Origin: a virus
Length of the DNA: 53,903 bases
IMG/VR virus record: IMGVR_UViG_3300034404_000011
Location: 1 to 53,903 of that record
Strand: one strand, 5' to 3'
Shown here: positions 17,357 to 50,354 of the stretch, piece by piece
Layout: the number at the start of each line of letters is the position of its first letter
How positions within the stretch are numbered: position 1 is the first letter of the stretch
The notes under the pieces: generated by a model
Told to the model about the DNA's origin: nothing
What the model saw: only the letters and a program-made list of their open reading frames with translations
Database searches by the model: none
Made by a program: the position numbers and the translations under genes

Positions 17357-18118
17357 TTATCCTATGAATTCTTTCTCCTTAAAATCCTGTAAAATATGTA
17401 ATCTGGGACTGAATATCAAATTATGTTTTGTGCAGAATAATAGTGTCTCATAACTATTGTTTAATTGTTTTTCTCTCGTTGCTCCTTCTGGCATAACAAA
17501 TATGCCAACAGCTTTATTTCTTACTTTTTCTGCTAATGTCAATATAAATTCCTGGGTTTGTGAACTTTCATAAACAAATTTAAGGGAAAAGCTTATGTTG
17601 TTTACATTCATATTGTTTAACTGATCTACGAGTTTTGGATACGTATCTACATATTTATGTTGATATCTCATTTCTTTTGGTGATATGCTAAAATGAAATT
17701 TTATGTTATTACAATAAACAAAGTCATCTATTATAGGGTTTGTTCCATTTGTTTCTATTATGACAAAATCTTTTCCACTATATTCATTCCATAGTTTTGA
17801 TACTTCAACTATGAATGCTTGTCTATCTTCTGTTATTAAAGGTTCTCCACCAGTAAACATAAGCAAATAATCATTTAGCTCATAACTAACATTCTGAACA
17901 GAATCAACTATATGGTTTGTTAATATGTAGTTTATCAGTTCCTCAGGACTAAAATCTTTACCTGGATTTGACCAATTCTCGTAGCTATCACAGAATTTAC
18001 ATCTTAGATTACAACTAGCAAATCTGATTAACAATACAGGTAATCCTATATATGCTCCTTCTCCTTGCAGTGTCTTGAAAATTTGATAAATACGCTGTTT
18101 ATTAACTTTGGTTGTCAT
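17357..18118 (-). CDS. queE: 7-carboxy-7-deazaguanine synthase QueE
   Basis: 253 residues. TLQGEGAYIGLP (about residues 16-27) is the QueE opening. CNLRCKFCDSYENW carries the three Cys that bind the radical-SAM iron-sulfur cluster (CxxxCxxC). MFTGGEPL is the SAM-binding GGEP motif and VIIETNGT the next strand. It converts carboxytetrahydropterin, the QueD product, to 7-carboxy-7-deazaguanine. QueD is at 40467 and the DpdA-like protein at 6771. QueC and a GTP cyclohydrolase are not in the window and may come from the host or lie elsewhere. Confidence 0.92.
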   Translation of the reverse strand: MTTKVNKQRIYQIFKTLQGEGAYIGLPVLLIRFASCNLRCKFCDSYENWSNPGKDFSPEELINYILTNHIVDSVQNVSYELNDYLLMFTGGEPLITEDRQAFIVEVSKLWNEYSGKDFVIIETNGTNPIIDDFVYCNNIKFHFSISPKEMRYQHKYVDTYPKLVDQLNNMNVNNISFSLKFVYESSQTQEFILTLAEKVRNKAVGIFVMPEGATREKQLNNSYETLLFCTKHNLIFSPRLHILQDFKEKEFIG

Positions 18119-18215: not shown

Positions 18216-18806
18216 CTACCCTGAAGATAAATACCCGTCAATCTTTTCGCAATCATCTCCACCTTTATGGAGGATGGAGACATCAAGCATAGAGGTTAAA
18301 CTTATAGTCTTGTACTCGTTATCAAGTTGATCTTTAGCTGATTTTCCGTTTGCTGTAACTAGCAAAGGTTCGTTACGTGTAAAACCTTTAATGATAGCTC
18401 TGTTTTCCAAAACAATGGGAGCATTTGACCAATTGTAAACTGGGATCGGATTTCTTTTCTCTATCTTCAATACCTGAGATAAAGTGAACATACCAATACT
18501 TTGATAGAGATTAATTTTAGCCCAGAAATTTTTGTTGTTAAGTAGGTTATGATGTAGTTGTTCAAATGTTAGTGAAGCTATACCATGTGGAACATATATT
18601 GTAATTCGTGTATCAGCAACACCTGTTATTAAACAACTATCTTTATTGTTTGCTGCAAAGACTAACAGATATAATTCATTAACAAATTTTACTTCTATAT
18701 CAGATAACTCTTTTGCAATATAATTTCCATTTACAATAAATATTTTTTTGTCAAAATTCCAATATTTTCGTATGCTTTTCTGTATTTGTTCTCGCAATAT
18801 CTGCAT
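18216..18806 (-). CDS. Unknown virion-like protein
   Basis: 196 residues with a helical start (MQILREQIQKSIRKYW), then a beta-rich body containing ITIYVPHGIASLTFEQ. No named domain. Element B start (AGCGACTAAGAATATG). It lies between QueE and the frameshift-containing baseplate-like gene, on the same strand, so it may belong to a tail or baseplate cluster with 19049 and 20563. Confidence 0.7.
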   Translation of the reverse strand: MQILREQIQKSIRKYWNFDKKIFIVNGNYIAKELSDIEVKFVNELYLLVFAANNKDSCLITGVADTRITIYVPHGIASLTFEQLHHNLLNNKNFWAKINLYQSIGMFTLSQVLKIEKRNPIPVYNWSNAPIVLENRAIIKGFTRNEPLLVTANGKSAKDQLDNEYKTISLTSMLDVSILHKGGDDCEKIDGYLSSG

Positions 18807-18854: not shown

Positions 18855-19070
18855 TTAGAATACAAAAGGATGATTAATTTTTTGTTTAGATTGACTAGAT
18901 AATTTATGTTCTAATTCTTTTTGTTTCTCTACAATTTTAGTTGCTTGAACATGAAATATAATCATAAAACTAGCAGGTAAATTAAAAATATCTAAATCTT
19001 TAATTTCCAAAACCAGAGCATTGCTCAAAAATGTTATTGGACTTAATTTTACTGTATGAAGATGTTGAAA
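18855..19070 (-). CDS. Minus-one-frame extension of the baseplate-like gene (programmed frameshift product)
   Basis: After the slip site at 19067-19073 the -1 frame runs open for about 70 codons (QHLHTVKLSPITFLSNALVL and onward) to TAA at 18855-18857, whereas the zero frame stops at 19049. It has no good start codon of its own or start element of either class, so it is best explained as a C-terminal extension. It is amphipathic, with a Lys/Glu/Gln-rich helix near the end. Without it a 240-base gap would be empty, which is unusual for this compact genome. Confidence 0.6.
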   Translation of the reverse strand, partial: FQHLHTVKLSPITFLSNALVLEIKDLDIFNLPASFMIIFHVQATKIVEKQKELEHKLSSQSKQKINHPFVF

Positions 19071-19933
19071 AAATGTTGTATAGGTTCAAATGTAATCTCA
19101 TTTTGATTTCCACATTCCTGACACGTAAACATATACTTTAAATTAATTCTTTCCTGACGATAAGGTTCAATAGCTTTGTTGAGTTTTCTTGTTATGATTT
19201 TGACTAGACTTTCAGGTAAATCTCTTAATACAGATACGTTTCCACTTGTAGCATTATACATCAGTTTAATTTTCTCCTGAGGTCCAGTTTCAAATATATA
19301 TAGACTGTGAACATACTCAAAATTTGTAAAGGGAGCATTTATTATATCCTCAATATTTATACAAGCCAATGGAAAGCCAACTTTTATTCTAATATCTAGA
19401 TTTTCCACATTTATATTTATATCTGTTGGTTCAAGACTCTTTTCTGGTAATTCAAAAATCAGTGAATAGATAGGTTTCTCTATCTCAAATTGCTCTCTTA
19501 GGTTTTTTATATGTTCAAGTATATCAATATTGGGATCGTTGAATAAATTCAAATCATATGTGAGCACAAAATTATTTTCACTATTGCATTTGGAACAATA
19601 TTCCTTCACTTCAATAACAGTTAATGTTGCTAGCAACTCAATTATCGGTAATATGAGATAATGTTTTTCTTCTAGTGTGATTTTTTGACCAACTTGATCA
19701 TACTCTTCTACACAATTCTCAACATAGTTATCTATGATTTTATACAGGAACTTTATTCTCTCTAGACTTTTTTCTTCCTTATCTACATTACCAGCTGTTT
19801 GCAATGCTAAAAGATTGTTCATAATATTTATTCTTTGTTTTGCTAGTGGTTCTTTTACTGTTACGTATTGATTACTTTGAGGTAGATAAACTCTGATTCT
19901 CTTGCGAAGCTCTTCAAACTTACTCTTTTGCAT
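19049..19933 (-). CDS. T4 gp26-like baseplate hub or tail chaperone-type protein with two CxxC knuckles
   Basis: 294 residues in the zero frame. CSKCNSENNF (about residue 125) and CQECGNQNEITFEP followed by HFF (about residue 273 to the end) are zinc-knuckle-like pairs. A CxxC motif followed by an F-F end recalls the T4 baseplate hub family (gp26), but I cannot test the match. The start is at 19933, where AGCAATACCAAAC precedes the ATG with ten-base spacing. An upstream ATG at 19969 is less likely. The 3' end contains T TTT TTC, a canonical -1 slip heptamer. Confidence 0.6.
   Translation of the reverse strand: MQKSKFEELRKRIRVYLPQSNQYVTVKEPLAKQRINIMNNLLALQTAGNVDKEEKSLERIKFLYKIIDNYVENCVEEYDQVGQKITLEEKHYLILPIIELLATLTVIEVKEYCSKCNSENNFVLTYDLNLFNDPNIDILEHIKNLREQFEIEKPIYSLIFELPEKSLEPTDININVENLDIRIKVGFPLACINIEDIINAPFTNFEYVHSLYIFETGPQEKIKLMYNATSGNVSVLRDLPESLVKIITRKLNKAIEPYRQERINLKYMFTCQECGNQNEITFEPIQHFFNIFIQ
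19067..19073 (-). promoter_or_regulatory. Minus-one ribosomal slip heptamer
   Basis: T TTT TTC in the zero frame of the baseplate-like gene (codons CAT TTT TTC), six codons before its stop. A -1 slip re-reads TTT TTT and enters the open frame at 18855-19070. No strong stimulatory hairpin is evident within the next 40 bases. Confidence 0.55.
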
Positions 19934-20029: not shown

Positions 20030-20524
20030 CTATATAACCATAATAGTTCTATGATTAATCAATTTTGATAGTATAACCTCATATCTTGTAATGCGAATAT
20101 GATAATTTTTATTCAATATTGTAATGTAGTCTTTAATTTTTTGTTCACTACACAAAACAATTATTGAATCTGTGGTCATATCTTTAATCTCCGTTTGATC
20201 AAAATAATCTACTCTCAATATTCTTTTGTTTATTTCTGCTACATAGTTTGTTTTGAATTTTTTGTGAAATTCTATCATCAGTGATTTCTTATCTCTGCTA
20301 GCCGTGATACCAAAATCACTACTCAAAATGTCATTGTATTGGTCTGATTTAATGAAGTCAACTAACCTATCAAACTTTCTAACATTTGCTGATAAATATC
20401 TCATAGTTTGAAAGAAGCCATCAATTAAATCTATCTCAAATAGGTAGGGATCTTTAAATACATACACGGATGGTAAAATACCATTATTGCGGAATACATG
20501 TTTAATCAATGTATCTGATAGCAT
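20030..20524 (-). CDS. Unknown protein, element A gene
   Basis: 164 residues, mixed alpha/beta, with no recognised motif. It contains SLMIEFHKKFK and DSIIVLCSEQKIKDYI, suggestive of a small Rossmann-like or ferredoxin-like fold. Lies between late-type genes but has an early-type start element. Confidence 0.7.
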   Translation of the reverse strand: MLSDTLIKHVFRNNGILPSVYVFKDPYLFEIDLIDGFFQTMRYLSANVRKFDRLVDFIKSDQYNDILSSDFGITASRDKKSLMIEFHKKFKTNYVAEINKRILRVDYFDQTEIKDMTTDSIIVLCSEQKIKDYITILNKNYHIRITRYEVILSKLINHRTIMVI

Positions 20525-21835: not shown

Positions 21836-21841
21836 TTGTAT

Positions 21842-23662
21842 ATGAAGTTTGATAACTGTGCTTCATGTATGTTAAGAGATCGTCCTATTGTTATGGAGGA
21901 TTACATAGATAATGGTTCAGATCAAACTATTATGTTAGTTGGTGAAGCACCAGGCTACACAGAAGCAAAAACCGGTAGGCCATTTACAGGTAAATCAGGC
22001 TCCATAATTCGCAACATTATAAAACAAATCAAAAACTACAATATTGTAATAACAAATAGTGTTTTATGTCATCCAGATAAGAATGAAACTCCAAATGATA
22101 CTGTGTTAACAAAATGTAGACCAAACATCATTAATCAAATACAAAAATATTCACCAGTTAAAATTATTACACTAGGTAATAGAGGTTTGCAACAAATATG
22201 TAAAATTTACCAACTTAAGCATATCAAAGCATCACAAAAAGGATTTATAGACACTGTTTTGGATAGGAATACTAAACAAAAGATAGAAATTTATGCAACA
22301 TATCATCCTGCTTACTATTTGAGAAGTAGAGAAGAGGATATCATAAATCATATTTTGGATACATTTAAGCAAGCAACAAATAATCCAAATCTAGTCTACA
22401 TAGATACAGCAAGCAAAGTAGAAGCAGCAAAACAATTAGAGTTCTTACAATCAGAATATGATAGTGCTAAGAATTTAGATTTGGATATTGATTTAAATGG
22501 ATATGATATAATATCCTGCTTTGAATATGAAAATTATATGTTGTTATGTTTATACAAACCTGAAGCAGGCAAAAAGATTATCGGATTACCAATTCAAACT
22601 TTTGTACATAATTTTGATGCAGACAAAAAATTCAATTTTGCTACATTTGTAACAGGAGATAAAAAAGAACTCAGAATTGTTAGCAGAGACTACGGTAAAA
22701 TACTTAGCGACTACATAAAAAATATAAATAGTAAAAGCTCTTCATTTGGAGTTATAGAGGGCAGTTTAGTTCAGAATTTTGCATTATTCCTAGCAGTATC
22801 TAGAAATAGATCGTTTCACAAACCCAGTTATGTATATTTGGATATAGAAGTTTTAAACAATGAAGGAGAATTTCCAGATCCAGTTATAGCTGATAGACCC
22901 ATCATATGTTACAGTTATATGGATAACAATAAGAACAAAATATATAGTTGTTACTTGCAAACAAAACATATAGATTTACAAACAGTAAAAAAATATTTAC
23001 CAGAACAAGTTAATCAAGAAATTGAATTGATTGCTTTCGAAAATGAAAAGGATTTAGTTGTTCACATAACCAATAAAATAAAAGATGAGTTTGTTTTGTA
23101 TGTTGGTTGGAATGTTGGCTTTGACGTATCATACATCATAAACAGATACATAAAGCTAACAAACGATAGTTCCATTATTCCCTGTAAAGTGAATGATGAA
23201 AAGAATGTGGGTACAGATTGTGACTTGGTCTATGGTGCAACAATAGATTTGTTAAAGATGTATCGCAATATAAAACCAGATCTAACATCTTACTCTTTGG
23301 ATAATGTCTCAAAATTAGAATTAAAATCTAGCAAAGTAAAACTAAACAAATCCTTAAAACAAATCTGGGATGAAGACCCAAGCTTAGTTATTGCATACAA
23401 CATATATGACACTATTCTGGTTAGCATGATAGATGAAAAATATAAGTTTGTAGATCAATATCACTATTTGAGATCTTTGTATGAATTACCTTTTAATGAG
23501 AAATTTGTTAACAGTAAAGTTTTAGCTACAACTGTTAAGTTGATTGCAATTGCTCTGAGACATAATCTAATTCCAACTATGTTAGCTAGCAAAACAATTG
23601 ATTCGTATACAGGAGCATATGTAAGAGAGTTTATAAAAGGTGTGTTTAGAGTAGAATCTTAA
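21842..23662 (+). CDS. Family-4-type uracil-DNA glycosylase fused to the 3'-5' exonuclease half of a family B DNA polymerase
   Basis: 606 residues. Residues 1-185 are UDG: CASC plus Cys in VLCHP and KCRP give the four Cys of the iron-sulfur cluster, GEAPGYTEAKTGRPFTGKSG is the uracil-binding loop and YHPAYY the DNA-intercalation motif. Residues 330-560 are a DnaQ-like exonuclease: YLDIEVLN (ExoI), GWNVGFDVSYI (ExoII) and YNIYDTIL (ExoIII). It ends at GAYVREFIKGVFRVES, the stretch that in family B polymerases immediately precedes motif A. The polymerase domain begins at that motif in a separate gene at 45235-46791. The two proteins should assemble into one enzyme. Confidence 0.88.
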   Translation: MKFDNCASCMLRDRPIVMEDYIDNGSDQTIMLVGEAPGYTEAKTGRPFTGKSGSIIRNIIKQIKNYNIVITNSVLCHPDKNETPNDTVLTKCRPNIINQIQKYSPVKIITLGNRGLQQICKIYQLKHIKASQKGFIDTVLDRNTKQKIEIYATYHPAYYLRSREEDIINHILDTFKQATNNPNLVYIDTASKVEAAKQLEFLQSEYDSAKNLDLDIDLNGYDIISCFEYENYMLLCLYKPEAGKKIIGLPIQTFVHNFDADKKFNFATFVTGDKKELRIVSRDYGKILSDYIKNINSKSSSFGVIEGSLVQNFALFLAVSRNRSFHKPSYVYLDIEVLNNEGEFPDPVIADRPIICYSYMDNNKNKIYSCYLQTKHIDLQTVKKYLPEQVNQEIELIAFENEKDLVVHITNKIKDEFVLYVGWNVGFDVSYIINRYIKLTNDSSIIPCKVNDEKNVGTDCDLVYGATIDLLKMYRNIKPDLTSYSLDNVSKLELKSSKVKLNKSLKQIWDEDPSLVIAYNIYDTILVSMIDEKYKFVDQYHYLRSLYELPFNEKFVNSKVLATTVKLIAIALRHNLIPTMLASKTIDSYTGAYVREFIKGVFRVES

Positions 23663-28315: not shown

Positions 28316-28765
28316 ATGAAGCAAACAGACAAAATACAAAAATTTATTCATGATTTTCGTTTGCAAATTGATTATGAGCGCAAACTAATTACAGTAGATA
28401 AACACTTTTTAAATTTATCTGATAAGATATATGCTCCAGTATTTAAGTATCATGATGTGGATTATGCTCTTAGGTTTATAGCTAATGTTGTATTGCATCA
28501 AGATAAGTTGGATACACATCAATTAAAAGAACTACCTTTGGAGGTTATTAATGTGGCCAATAAGTTAAAAAATTTCAAAGTTTATGTTGCTAACTCAAAA
28601 AAGAATTATTGTGTTTCAATTTATTATAAAGGTAGAGAATATCAAACATTAACTGATGTTAAAGTTGTATGGCTCTGGTGTTTATATGATTTGATAGTTT
28701 ACTTGACTAATGCAAAAAGTCATCTAAATTTATATGCATGTCAGACAGAAGACAGGAAGAGTTGA
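28316..28765 (+). CDS. Small unknown protein, element A gene
   Basis: 149 residues, Lys/Tyr/His/Val-rich, with segments FKVYVANSKKNYCVSIYYKG and a hydrophobic C-terminal helix (VVWLWCLYDLIVYLTNA). No known domain. First of three consecutive short element A genes (28316, 28738, 28909). Its last 28 bases overlap the start of the next. Confidence 0.7.
   Translation: MKQTDKIQKFIHDFRLQIDYERKLITVDKHFLNLSDKIYAPVFKYHDVDYALRFIANVVLHQDKLDTHQLKELPLEVINVANKLKNFKVYVANSKKNYCVSIYYKGREYQTLTDVKVVWLWCLYDLIVYLTNAKSHLNLYACQTEDRKS
28723..28731 (+). promoter_or_regulatory. Element A inside the 3' end of the gene at 28316
   Basis: TCTAAATTT, spacer ATATGC, then ATG at 28738. It lies within coding sequence of the upstream gene. 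Confidence 0.65.
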
Positions 28766-43905: not shown

Positions 43906-45201
43906 CTATTCATCATTTATACTCCCTTCAACGAATTGCTTTGGAATAGCTATTACAAGTCCTATTGGTAAATCTCTGAAGTAAGTTATTTTATTTGTTT
44001 TTTTGCTTTTAACTCTAATTGTTATATTTGCATCAACGCTATCACCATCAAAGTCTCCTCCCAGTGGTGCACAAGCTAACGGATGTATTTGTATTGTATC
44101 TTGATCTGCTATAACTGGTTTTGCTGCTAGCCAAGATGTCTTATGCAAAGCTGGGTCTCTTTTATAAACCACTACAGCATCTGGTAAAACATCTTGCTCT
44201 AAAACCTTTCTAAAGAAGTTTATCAATTCTTGTGGAAACAGAGTAGGATAATTGGAAATCTTGTTTATAAGCTTAGTTATATCATTAACAGTAGGTTTAA
44301 TCTCTTGTCTTGCAGTTTTTGTTATCTCTATAAATTCTTGTTTGTGTTTTGTTAGTATGCTATTAATTATTTGTGGCTTGTATAGTTGCAACAGAGCCGT
44401 AAATGGAATAGCAATTTGGTCTATCTCGAGATTTGGATTAGGACTAATAACAGATCTTGCTGTGTAGTTAACTGTTTTGCTAGCAAGTTGTTCTCTAATA
44501 AAACCTGTTTTTGTTCCAAATTGTTCTGCTAACAAATCTATTAGTTTAACGATCAACCTATACAATTTTGAGCTATTAGCATTACCAACTTCAAAAGTTT
44601 TGTTTTGTTCTATTATTTTTGAGTAAACATCTGTTAACGGATGTATTGATATTTTGTTGTCTATCTTTGAGTAATCTCTCCAACCAGGAGGAAGCACAAT
44701 TATTTTGTTTGTTATCAAATTCTCAACTTTATTGTTTGATAATTTGATTATCTCATTTATTAACTGACCGGATACACTATTCTGTTGAGCAATATACTCA
44801 ATCAATTTAATCAGTTTGTTTTTCTCAAAGAAGTCTGCGAAGCCTTGCATCAAGATTTTATGATTTGTGTAGCTAATCTCTTTCGCATCTTCCAAAACTA
44901 AATTCCCTTCTTCATCAATTGCTAAAATCCTATCTGGTCTGTTTCTGAATGCTCTGATTGTGGGTAAATTATCCAGAATCATCAACACAGGAAACTTAGG
45001 GATATATACATTCAACGGTATATATCCCATTTGCTCAAACCATTTTGAACTTTTTCTCTCACCAAATAGATATTGTGAGTACAATCCATTTATTTGGCTC
45101 AGTAACTTTTGTTCGTTTAAGTTTGCAGGTAATGGTTCCATAATAGCTGGAGCATTATGCTCCTTAATAAATTGTTCCACATTTAGTAGTTCAAAAATCA
45201 T
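43906..45201 (-). CDS. RNA polymerase beta-prime subunit, N-terminal catalytic fragment (putative virion polymerase)
   Basis: 431 residues to a TAG. EQLASKTVNYTARSVISPNP (about residues 240-260) matches the beta-prime switch GKRVDYSGRSVI. YKRDPALHKTSWL and IQIHPLACAPLGGDFDGDSV (about 345-385) match NRAPTLH and the catalytic NADFDGD loop, with all three Asp. There is no zinc-binding N-terminus as in the paralogue at 8129. After the TAG (43906-43908) the same frame continues for 32 codons (VTSKANDITILGKTTTNPLM and onward) to TGA at 43807. That stretch resembles the usual segment after the catalytic loop. Element B start (AGCAATCAAAATCAATG). Confidence 0.83.
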   Translation of the reverse strand: MIFELLNVEQFIKEHNAPAIMEPLPANLNEQKLLSQINGLYSQYLFGERKSSKWFEQMGYIPLNVYIPKFPVLMILDNLPTIRAFRNRPDRILAIDEEGNLVLEDAKEISYTNHKILMQGFADFFEKNKLIKLIEYIAQQNSVSGQLINEIIKLSNNKVENLITNKIIVLPPGWRDYSKIDNKISIHPLTDVYSKIIEQNKTFEVGNANSSKLYRLIVKLIDLLAEQFGTKTGFIREQLASKTVNYTARSVISPNPNLEIDQIAIPFTALLQLYKPQIINSILTKHKQEFIEITKTARQEIKPTVNDITKLINKISNYPTLFPQELINFFRKVLEQDVLPDAVVVYKRDPALHKTSWLAAKPVIADQDTIQIHPLACAPLGGDFDGDSVDANITIRVKSKKTNKITYFRDLPIGLVIAIPKQFVEGSINDE

Positions 45202-45234: not shown

Positions 45235-46791
45235 CTAAAGCATATCTTTGATTGATTTTACGAATTTATTCACATATTCTTGTTCCAAGCCAACTACATA
45301 ATTTTGAACAAAGTTTATTGCTTCATCGCTATCCTCAACAACAATCACAGACGCATTTTTTGCTTTGTTAACAACAAGCATAACAATATCCAAAGGTAAA
45401 TGTTGTCTCAATTTGTCTGATAACTCATTTAAAAACTTTAGTGAATATTTTCCTTTTAGTGATAGACCTCTGCTTCCATGACTGAACACAGGACCAACTA
45501 TTAGATTGTATAGCAACATACCAAAGATATGCGGTGCAATTGACTTTAATATTTTTTCAGCTTCACTTCTGTTTTTAGCCGCTTTCAATATGGATATTAA
45601 ATCATTGCTAGTTAATGTTGTAGTTTTCCAAGCAACCATACCTGATATATCTCGTAATGTTGTAAGATCAAGATTTGCATTATAATCTTTCAATATACTT
45701 ATTAACTCCATTTTTATGATATGTTCCAACATAGTTAACTTAACCTCTCCTCTACATATACGTTTAAACAGATTTATCAAATACTCATTCAAAAAGTCTG
45801 GATTTTGTCTATTCAAAAAGCCTGCTAGCTTATACTCATCAGTCTGAGAGTTATATAGGAAATATCTCTTCTTAACTCCTGTTCCAAATGCAGAGTCTCC
45901 AACAAATTCCAATTTAACTTTTGGATAATGTGCTAGTACTTTTTGTTTGTATGTGTTTGTAGCAAATCTATGAGCATAAGTGTAAACCAAGGGTAAAATA
46001 CTATTATTCAAAACATCTTCATGCAAAATATCATATTTATCGTAAACAAAGAAGCTATCTGTATCGTTATACATTATGAATTGAGTATTTGCATCAAACT
46101 TTTTACGAGCACTAATAAAATCATTTATATTAACAGACAAATCATTAATATTTTTTGTTTGTATATAACGATTAATCAAAGCTGATGTTGTTAGAGATAT
46201 ATATTGTCCTGTTATTGTTATGGCTTCAGCAATGTATATATTGTAGAATGAAAATGAATCTGTTCCGAAGACACCGTACATGCTATTCATGGCAAGTTTG
46301 GTTGCATTCTGTATGAGATCTGCAACTTGATCGCCTTGCTTTGCCTTTGCCTTATATATATCTCTCATTTTAATCCATTCAACTAAAGTCTTTTCTAGTA
46401 AGATAGATAACTGATTACCATTTGTTAGTAATCCATTAGGAGTAACAATTATGTTTTTGTTTTGTATTAAGTCCAGTAAATCTTGTCCATTCATTTCATG
46501 ATTGGTAAATCGTTTTGTTGTTATAAACCATTTGTATTTGACAATTTCATCATACAATCCAAACCAAAACAATGTTCCAAATATCCTACCTGCAAACCTA
46601 CCTTTTGCAAAATTATTCCAATAGGTTAAATCAGCTTCATTATTTGTTTCAATACATAACAATTCTTGCAAGTATTTCTCTTCGTTTTTTATGTTTGATC
46701 CTGATACAAATCCATGAACATCTAGAATATTGTTTGCTACCATGAGATTTGGATATAGTGAATTTACGTCAAAAACTTTTATTGTTGGCAT
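45235..46791 (-). CDS. Family B DNA polymerase, polymerase domain only
   Basis: 518 residues starting just before motif A. KVFDVNSLYPN (residues 5-15) is motif A, TKLAMNSMYGVFG (about 165-178) motif B, IMYNDTDSFFVY (about 237-248) motif C with two catalytic Asp, and GVKKRYFLYN (about 303-312) the KxY motif. No exonuclease domain: it is encoded at 21842-23662, fused to a UDG, and ends exactly where this protein begins. Replicative polymerase of the phage. Divergent from the primase gene, each with element A. Confidence 0.93.
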   Translation of the reverse strand: MPTIKVFDVNSLYPNLMVANNILDVHGFVSGSNIKNEEKYLQELLCIETNNEADLTYWNNFAKGRFAGRIFGTLFWFGLYDEIVKYKWFITTKRFTNHEMNGQDLLDLIQNKNIIVTPNGLLTNGNQLSILLEKTLVEWIKMRDIYKAKAKQGDQVADLIQNATKLAMNSMYGVFGTDSFSFYNIYIAEAITITGQYISLTTSALINRYIQTKNINDLSVNINDFISARKKFDANTQFIMYNDTDSFFVYDKYDILHEDVLNNSILPLVYTYAHRFATNTYKQKVLAHYPKVKLEFVGDSAFGTGVKKRYFLYNSQTDEYKLAGFLNRQNPDFLNEYLINLFKRICRGEVKLTMLEHIIKMELISILKDYNANLDLTTLRDISGMVAWKTTTLTSNDLISILKAAKNRSEAEKILKSIAPHIFGMLLYNLIVGPVFSHGSRGLSLKGKYSLKFLNELSDKLRQHLPLDIVMLVVNKAKNASVIVVEDSDEAINFVQNYVVGLEQEYVNKFVKSIKDML

Positions 46792-48761: not shown

Positions 48762-50354
48762 ATGAGTAATTTGACATATAAGCCGACACAGTTATTAACT
48801 GCTACTATGTTATGCGTTCCATTTCTAAGATTTAACGATCCAAATAGATTGCAGATGGCTTCCAACCATCTAAGACAATCCCTACCTTTGATTAATGCTG
48901 AAATCCCGAGGATAAGAACTGGATTTGAGAATGTAATTGTTGAGAAAGCAGAAAGCTTTTACATTGAGACAAATACTTTTGAGAAAATTGATGAATTTAT
49001 AGTTAAAACAGATGAAGGTTTGAAGTTTAATGCTATGTTTTTAAAATATGATGAGAAATTAAAAGTTGCATACAATCCTTATCATATATGTTTTGTCAGA
49101 GATATTGTTAGCGGTGGTTGGTGTCCTGAGCTCAAACTAGGAGTAAATGCTTTAGTTGGTTATATGTCTTACTATGGTTTCAACTATCAAGATGCCGTAG
49201 TAATATCTGAATCTTTTGCTAAAAGACTAAAACATATCGAGAGAAAAGTATTTGTTATTAGATTGCCTGCAAATAGTCAATTAAAACATATCAGTAGTAA
49301 TGACGATACTATTAGTTTGATACCAATACCAGGTAAAACATACAATACACTAATATCCTATGAGTATATTGAAGCAGGTATATTACAACGAAAACAAATT
49401 AATGTTGACAATTTGCTTGTAGTTGATGTAAGAGTTAAAGCTCTACCAAATTACAGATTACCTGCATCAGTAGCAGAATTCATCAAGAAAGCAAAGAAAC
49501 CATTCAAACTAGCAAAATTAGAAACAGAACCTACACAAAAATATCCTATTGTTATACAAATAATTGGTTATGTTACCAGAGAAGCAACAATAGGAGATAA
49601 ACTAACAAATAGACATGGAAACAAAGGAGTCATTGGCTTGATTGTTCCTGATGAAGAAATGCCCAAAACAAAAGACGGAAAGATATTAGATATATTGTTC
49701 TCTCCTCTTTCTGTTCCATCCAGAATGAACCTAGGCCAATTAATGGAAAATTTGCTTGCAAAAATTGTCGTTAAGGTTGAACAACAGGTATTAGATTTGC
49801 TTGATAGGAATATGAGGGATAAAGCTCAAAAAATGTTGCTAGACTTTTTAAAGAGAGTTGAAAAACGAAGTTCATTTCATCATTTAATTGACAGTGTTTT
49901 AACTAAAAGATGGGATTTATTGGAGTATAACCTAACAAAATATGGATTGAGCATCATACAACCACCTTTTAGTGAATTGAATGCAGAAGAGATAAAACAA
50001 TTAGCCAAAGACTATAATGTCAAGGAAATAGATTATGTTAAAGTAGATAATTATGATGTTAGCATCAATGTGGGTTATCAAACTATATTAAAACTAGAAC
50101 ATTTAGCATCAAGCAAAGTAACAGGAGCAGGCATAACAAACAATGAATACACTAATCCACAAAGAATCGGAGAAATGGAAACTTGGAATATCATTGCTCA
50201 TGATTATGATGAAATTAAGAGATTATTCCGCAGAAGTTATGAATTTGAAAAACTATCCTACTATAGCGATAAGTTTGGCTTTGATAGTTATATATTCAAA
50301 CCTGATGTAAATAATGTATATCAAGTTTACAAGAAAGTTTTATTCAATGAGTAA
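48762..50354 (+). CDS. RNA polymerase beta subunit, C-terminal fragment (putative non-virion polymerase)
   Basis: 530 residues. [20 protein letters not shown] (residues 19-38) matches [36 protein letters not shown] (about 131-145) matches GYNFEDAIxxSE. [20 protein letters not shown] (about 278-298) is the invariant GDKxxxRHGNKG block with the catalytic-site Lys residues. [18 protein letters not shown] and RIGEMETW are the C-terminal blocks. A complete beta C-terminal half. Element A links it with the beta-prime fragment at 8129. The matching beta N-terminal half is not seen in the window under element A. Confidence 0.92.
   Translation: [530 protein letters not shown]

Follow-up and report, generated by a model that had tools for sequence, protein, structure and literature searches.

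The question raised by this locus is whether a tail gene on the minus strand gives two products, the second of them made by ribosomes that slip into the -1 frame near the 3' end of the gene. The DNA analysed here, called the window, is the whole 53,903-nt stretch of the IMG/VR virus record IMGVR_UViG_3300034404_000011. The initial annotation, made from the letters alone, had proposed a candidate programmed -1 frameshift in a baseplate-like gene, with a zero frame that ends six codons after the heptamer T_TTT_TTC and a -1 frame that stays open for about 70 further codons in an otherwise empty gap. Direct reading bore out both details of this layout (Table 1). The zero-frame end reads ..CAA CAT TTT TTC AAC ATC TTC ATA CAG TAA, and the peptide read after a -1 slip is QHLHTVKLSPITFLSNALVLEIKDLDIFNLPASFMIIFHVQATKIVEKQKELEHKLSSQSKQKINHPFVF, with its stop codon at 18855-18857. 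The -1 frame is all that occupies the stretch from the zero-frame stop to the start of the next gene (18806). The zero-frame protein does have the CxxC knuckles and F-F end that had been pointed out in it; an alternative upstream start for this protein is present at TTG 19969. The gene downstream of the gap had no family match in PHROGs or Pfam.

Table 1. Features of the locus with the proposed slip site; positions are those of the window.
Feature	Position	Strand	Details
Zero-frame gene, predicted gp26-type tail assembly chaperone, short form (TAC-N, 'G'-like)	19049..19933	(-)	294 aa; ATG 19933; PF12322 and phrog_150
Slippery heptamer T_TTT_TTC	19067-19073	(-)	Direct reading; kept in L001 and L002; aligned with the FF columns of T4-like loci
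Zero-frame stop TAA	19049-19051	(-)	Sixth codon past the heptamer; direct reading
-1 frame extension (putative TAC-C, 'T'-like domain)	18855..19067	(-)	70 codons after the slip, plus stop; open in three contigs
Next gene downstream, bounding the gap	18216..18806	(-)	196 aa; ORF with its own start and an upstream AGCA-type motif

The short protein matched the Pfam family PF12322 (T4_baseplate, T4 bacteriophage base plate protein) with an E value of 1.8e-5 and 24.9 bits, only just above the curated cut-off of 24.5 bits, in an alignment spanning profile positions 40-218 of 219. Both near relatives of the window (described below) also matched PF12322, with neighbouring pieces. Membership in the family is marginal by the cut-off and independently supported by a jumbo-phage profile of the same gene, since none of 2000 shuffles reached the score of the window protein. 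The PHROGs match of the short protein was phrog_150, 'baseplate hub'. A direct tblastn search of the window protein against named phages gave no match, and the AlphaFold model of the short form was poor (pLDDT 41) and unusable for a fold search. The term 'baseplate-like' of the initial annotation is correct as a database name and misleading as a function: the protein is better described as a predicted gp26-type tail assembly chaperone (TAC) than as a baseplate component. No tape measure gene was recognised among the genes searched near the chaperone gene, the window being a fragment.

Conservation of the heptamer and of the overlap in related genomes had been set as a check on the frameshift proposal. 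Near relatives of the window are the records IMGVR 3300005856_000023 (129 kb) and 3300042858_000011 (88 kb), with 96-99% identity in the chaperone gene; scans with the terminase and the ribonucleotide reductase returned only the same two and one distant contig without PF12322. In both, the heptamer is preserved and the -1 frame stays open (loci L001, 96% protein identity, and L002, 99%). Among the three sequences, the -1 region shows 4, 2 and 4 base differences over 194 nt, too few to show selection.

In a wider comparison, an IMG/VR scan with gp26 gave a set of 80 T4-like loci (L014-L093). TTTTTTC begins exactly 13 nt before the end of the stop codon in 80/80 of these loci, and a conserved domain, ..NFxLMQxHKYSLTEIENMIPWERDIYV.., lies in the -1 frame in 78; in the remaining two (L038 and L091) the -1 frame is cut by the locus end. 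The codon preceding the FF always ends in T, and Phe elsewhere in the genes of these loci is encoded by TTT 654 times and by TTC 245 times. Since the loci are related to one another, they are not 80 independent events. In the alignment, the FF of the window falls in the invariant FF columns of this set. An SD-like string encoding EG lies upstream of the heptamer in all of these T4-like loci; no SD-like stimulator was found upstream of the window heptamer. The same arrangement was observed with T_TTT_TTC in Vibrio PVA8, Aeh1 and phiW-14, with T_TTT_TTT in Cr30 and phiM12, with a T run in HTVC008M and with variant slip sites in Ackermannviridae.

T4 itself covers phrog_150 twice, at positions 14-235 with gp26 and 13-280 with gp51. 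The two are paralogues that encode the short and the long form as separate genes 26 and 51, and gp51 has an extra C-terminal stretch, the part for which other phages use the -1 frame. Like T4, CP220 has a short gene and an in-frame long form. In the cyanophages S-RIM50 and S-RIM4 (L008 and L013), the annotated 'gp51' is a tiny ORF right after gp26 in the -1 frame; it is the -1 extension of gp26. Frameshifting would explain the short cyanophage gp51, whose length is just about 20% of the usual according to a 2010 comparison (PMC3037559). A T4-type pair of separate gp26 and gp51 genes was looked for and not found: one PF12322 copy only was present in each of the window, the 129-kb relative and the 88-kb relative (G000, G001 and G002, records that are possibly incomplete), so that no separate long-form gene was seen.

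The family of the window gene, the position of its FF at the T4-like slip site (80/80) and the paralogy of T4 genes 26 and 51 make -1 frameshifting with TAC-N and TAC-NC as products the most likely reading, and programmed frameshifting very probably makes both forms from this one gene. We infer the shift itself, its rate and the chaperone function in the window phage. The initial proposal of a frameshift of the tail-assembly type is thus supported by the heptamer and frame of the near relatives and by the same site in T4-like loci. Most ribosomes would complete the zero frame and yield the 294-aa short form (TAC-N). A minority would slip back one base on U_UUU_UUC, where the two Phe-tRNAs on UUU UUC could re-pair with UUU UUU, and would produce a long form of 359 aa (TAC-NC) whose C-terminal domain would be helical. 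With moderate confidence, AlphaFold2 predicted for the -1 peptide a helix at 11-22, a loop and a helix at 33-65 (mean pLDDT 66; blocks 31-60 at 81-87). By analogy with gpG/gpGT of lambda, the short form would coat the tape measure protein, the rare long form would recruit tail tube subunits, and both would depart before the tail is completed. A TAC-N/TAC-NC product pair is known from lambda G/GT (PMC5009743), poly-T sites in the TAC-N genes of T4-like phages have been called known -1 signals (PMC12846349), and T4-like TAC genes were identified by Vladimirov and colleagues in 2022, as cited in PMC10885494 and PMC12846349. Frameshifting in tail chaperones is well known already, and the window gene adds a very divergent lineage. 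It would extend gp26-type frameshift chaperones to highly divergent phages that have their own RNA polymerase and whose tail genes are otherwise unannotated, and would explain what a 'baseplate hub' protein and a seemingly empty gap are for.

We compared the window locus with named systems. Lambda gpG/gpGT and other TACs of long-tailed phages likewise have a short gene whose slip site lies close to the 3' end, with a -1 frame C-domain preceding the next gene; a low-level -1 shift is expected. Lambda differs in its heptamer, and its G and T show no detectable relation, whereas the window gene belongs to PF12322 and has no identified tape measure gene adjoining. In SPP1, a -1 shift at the identical UUUUUUC is proposed for the tail chaperone gene gp17.5/gp17.5* (PMC6316719), but this phage is a siphovirus with a longer extension and no sequence relationship to the window gene shown here. 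T4-like TAC genes are of the same protein family as the window gene, and those of cyanophages share T_TTT_TTC at the FF and the -1 C-domain; T4, in contrast, uses two separate genes without a frameshift, and the C-domain of the window is too diverged for a sequence match to the T4-like ones. AR9/PBS1 (g231-g230), Staphylococcus PALS_2 and Machias resemble the window in their multisubunit RNA polymerases and in a single PF12322-related gene with a -1 C-domain and poly-T near its end. They differ in their CTT_TTT_C or similar non-canonical site and in a longer N-terminal region and, unlike the window, carry baseplate wedge and GroEL genes nearby.

Alternatively, the -1 frame could be a small independent gene with a start of its own at TTG 19028 or 19010 or at ATG 18965. 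Start-like codons are present in the frame, and cyanophage annotators call the equivalent stretch a separate small 'gp51' gene. However, no ATG occurs in its first 34 codons (none before 18965) and it has no Shine-Dalgarno sequence, a signal that is nearly absent in the window (1/33 genes). The window contains 29 copies of CTAAATTT against about 9 expected; 16 genes carry this motif, and in 12 of them it ends exactly 6 nt short of the start codon; either CTAAATTT or an AGCA-type motif was found upstream in 39/50 window genes, which suggests that these motifs may be per-gene phage promoters with very short leaders. Examples of genes with CTAAATTT upstream are 17357-18118(-), 20030-20524(-) and 48762-50354(+). 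In the -1 frame, the CTAAATTT-N6-start motif is absent and an AGCA-type motif, whose background rate is 12%, occurs only before the weak TTG 19010; both points speak against an independent gene. In the relatives, moreover, no stop interrupts the frame as far as the heptamer or within it, and the heptamer never varies, neither of which a separate gene needs. We thus regard an independent gene as improbable.

We see an equally small chance that heptamer and open -1 frame coincide by accident in an AT-rich genome and that the gap is untranslated. Single slippery heptamers are common in DNA of 30% GC: when sequence was simulated from the dinucleotide composition of the window itself, an in-frame heptamer fell within the overlap at 8.2% of gene ends. 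But a -1 extension of at least 63 codons arose at only 0.66% of simulated gene ends, and both features jointly at 0.055%, i.e., 5.5e-4 per gene or about 0.03 per window. Among 57 non-overlapping window ORFs, a heptamer and a long -1 extension are both present in the chaperone gene alone; six ORFs have a longer -1 extension (all >115 codons, resembling the next gene on the same strand), and none of the six has an in-frame heptamer. At another window gene, 28316-28765(+), the -1 frame continues open for 41 codons beyond the stop, and an A_AAT_TTA heptamer is located 40 nt upstream of the gene end. RNA structure downstream and upstream of the chaperone heptamer gave no signal (z -1.05 to +0.69).

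The coincidence reading is also favoured by the lack of strong homology of the -1 peptide. The peptide had no match in PHROGs, and the fused product matched phrog_150 no better than the short form alone. Against the T4-like C-domain profile it ranked 543 of 1001 with shuffles, which is not significant. Against the AR9-type C-domain, 106/5000 shuffles scored as well (p about 0.02), a marginal result that is weaker than this number suggests because several profiles were tried. As a control, C-domain comparisons between accepted groups were also weak by the shuffle method (20 to 696 of 5000). What stands against coincidence, beyond the joint chance, is that the window has it at the homologous site and in the one family of genes known here to show the arrangement widely. 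Finally, it is very improbable that an ancestral fused frame was broken in the window copy, genuinely or by assembly: CP220 and T4 gp51 do have in-frame fused long forms, but contigs of different datasets, three in all, agree exactly in frame structure, all three would have to share a one-base indel in the T6 run, and, with a single PF12322 copy found, loss of the short form would be unusual.

We next consider the proposed -1 frameshift among phages with their own RNA polymerase. The window encodes pieces of a multisubunit RNA polymerase at 43906-45201(-) and 48762-50354(+); the 129-kb relative also has a second, larger beta-like gene (G001 104312-106024(-)). Of 50 viral contigs sampled first, each with a beta subunit distantly related to that of the window (about 23-36% identity), 18 had one PF12322 gene above the cut-off (L223-L240, with L229 and L230 near-identical). 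In the 17 readable gene ends the site ends in FFR or LFR, and the frame past the stop is open in +1, not in -1. A second scan gave 80 loci (L244-L323) with the site TTT TTT CGN (77) or TTC TTT CGC (3). The second Phe is TTT and the Arg is CGN in 80/80, whereas Arg elsewhere in the genes of this clade is AGA/AGG in 599/764 cases (CGN 22%). The +1 extension is visible in 79/80 (L289 runs off the contig end), and the C-domain carries MPVKRF..YLKWK..LEEEK. In bacteria, +1 slips are known to occur readily at UUU_Ynn, and influenza PA-X has the site UCC_UUU_CGU (PMC5009743, PMC3498833). By its letters, the gene end of this clade looks like a programmed +1 frameshift at a PA-X-type motif in phages. 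A -2 reading is less likely, since TTC TTT CGC and TTG TTT CGT sites block re-pairing of tRNA-Phe two bases back.

In AR9, BpSp, PALS_2 and Machias, the C-domain is in the -1 frame. AR9 g231/g230 (L326), PALS_2 263/264 (L327), BpSp 286/285 (L328) and Machias 197/196 (L329) are adjacent 'hypothetical proteins'; each pair looks like one tail chaperone gene with a -1 C-domain at a CTT_TTT_C-like site and is unannotated as such. In a tree of the short proteins, all sampled +1 users formed one group (support 0.96) with the AR9 group and the window as neighbours, and T4 gp26 and gp51 fell among the -1 users; the deep branching is tentative because the alignment is of short, divergent proteins. The direction of slippage has probably switched within one tail-chaperone family: the window, AR9-like and T4-like phages would use -1 on poly-T, a monophyletic group of RNA-polymerase phages would use +1 at UUU_UUU_CGN at the same FF position, and the window would be a deep-branching -1 member of the RNA-polymerase phages. 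HSTV-2 is thought to use +1 (PMC5009743). We found no report of the +1 UUU_CGN clade or of a direction switch in the open-access literature searched. The family would offer a testable experiment of nature: homologous genes arrive at one outcome, some by -1 and others by +1 slippage, on nearly identical letters.

Two further observations concern other genes of the window. A uracil-DNA glycosylase domain and the exonuclease domain of a family B DNA polymerase are joined in one gene, and a polymerase domain lies in a gene of its own at a distance of 22 kb (21836-23662(+) and 45235-46791(-)); the two would make up a split polymerase. The gene at 17357-18118(-) encodes a QueE-like radical SAM enzyme of the deazaguanine pathway.
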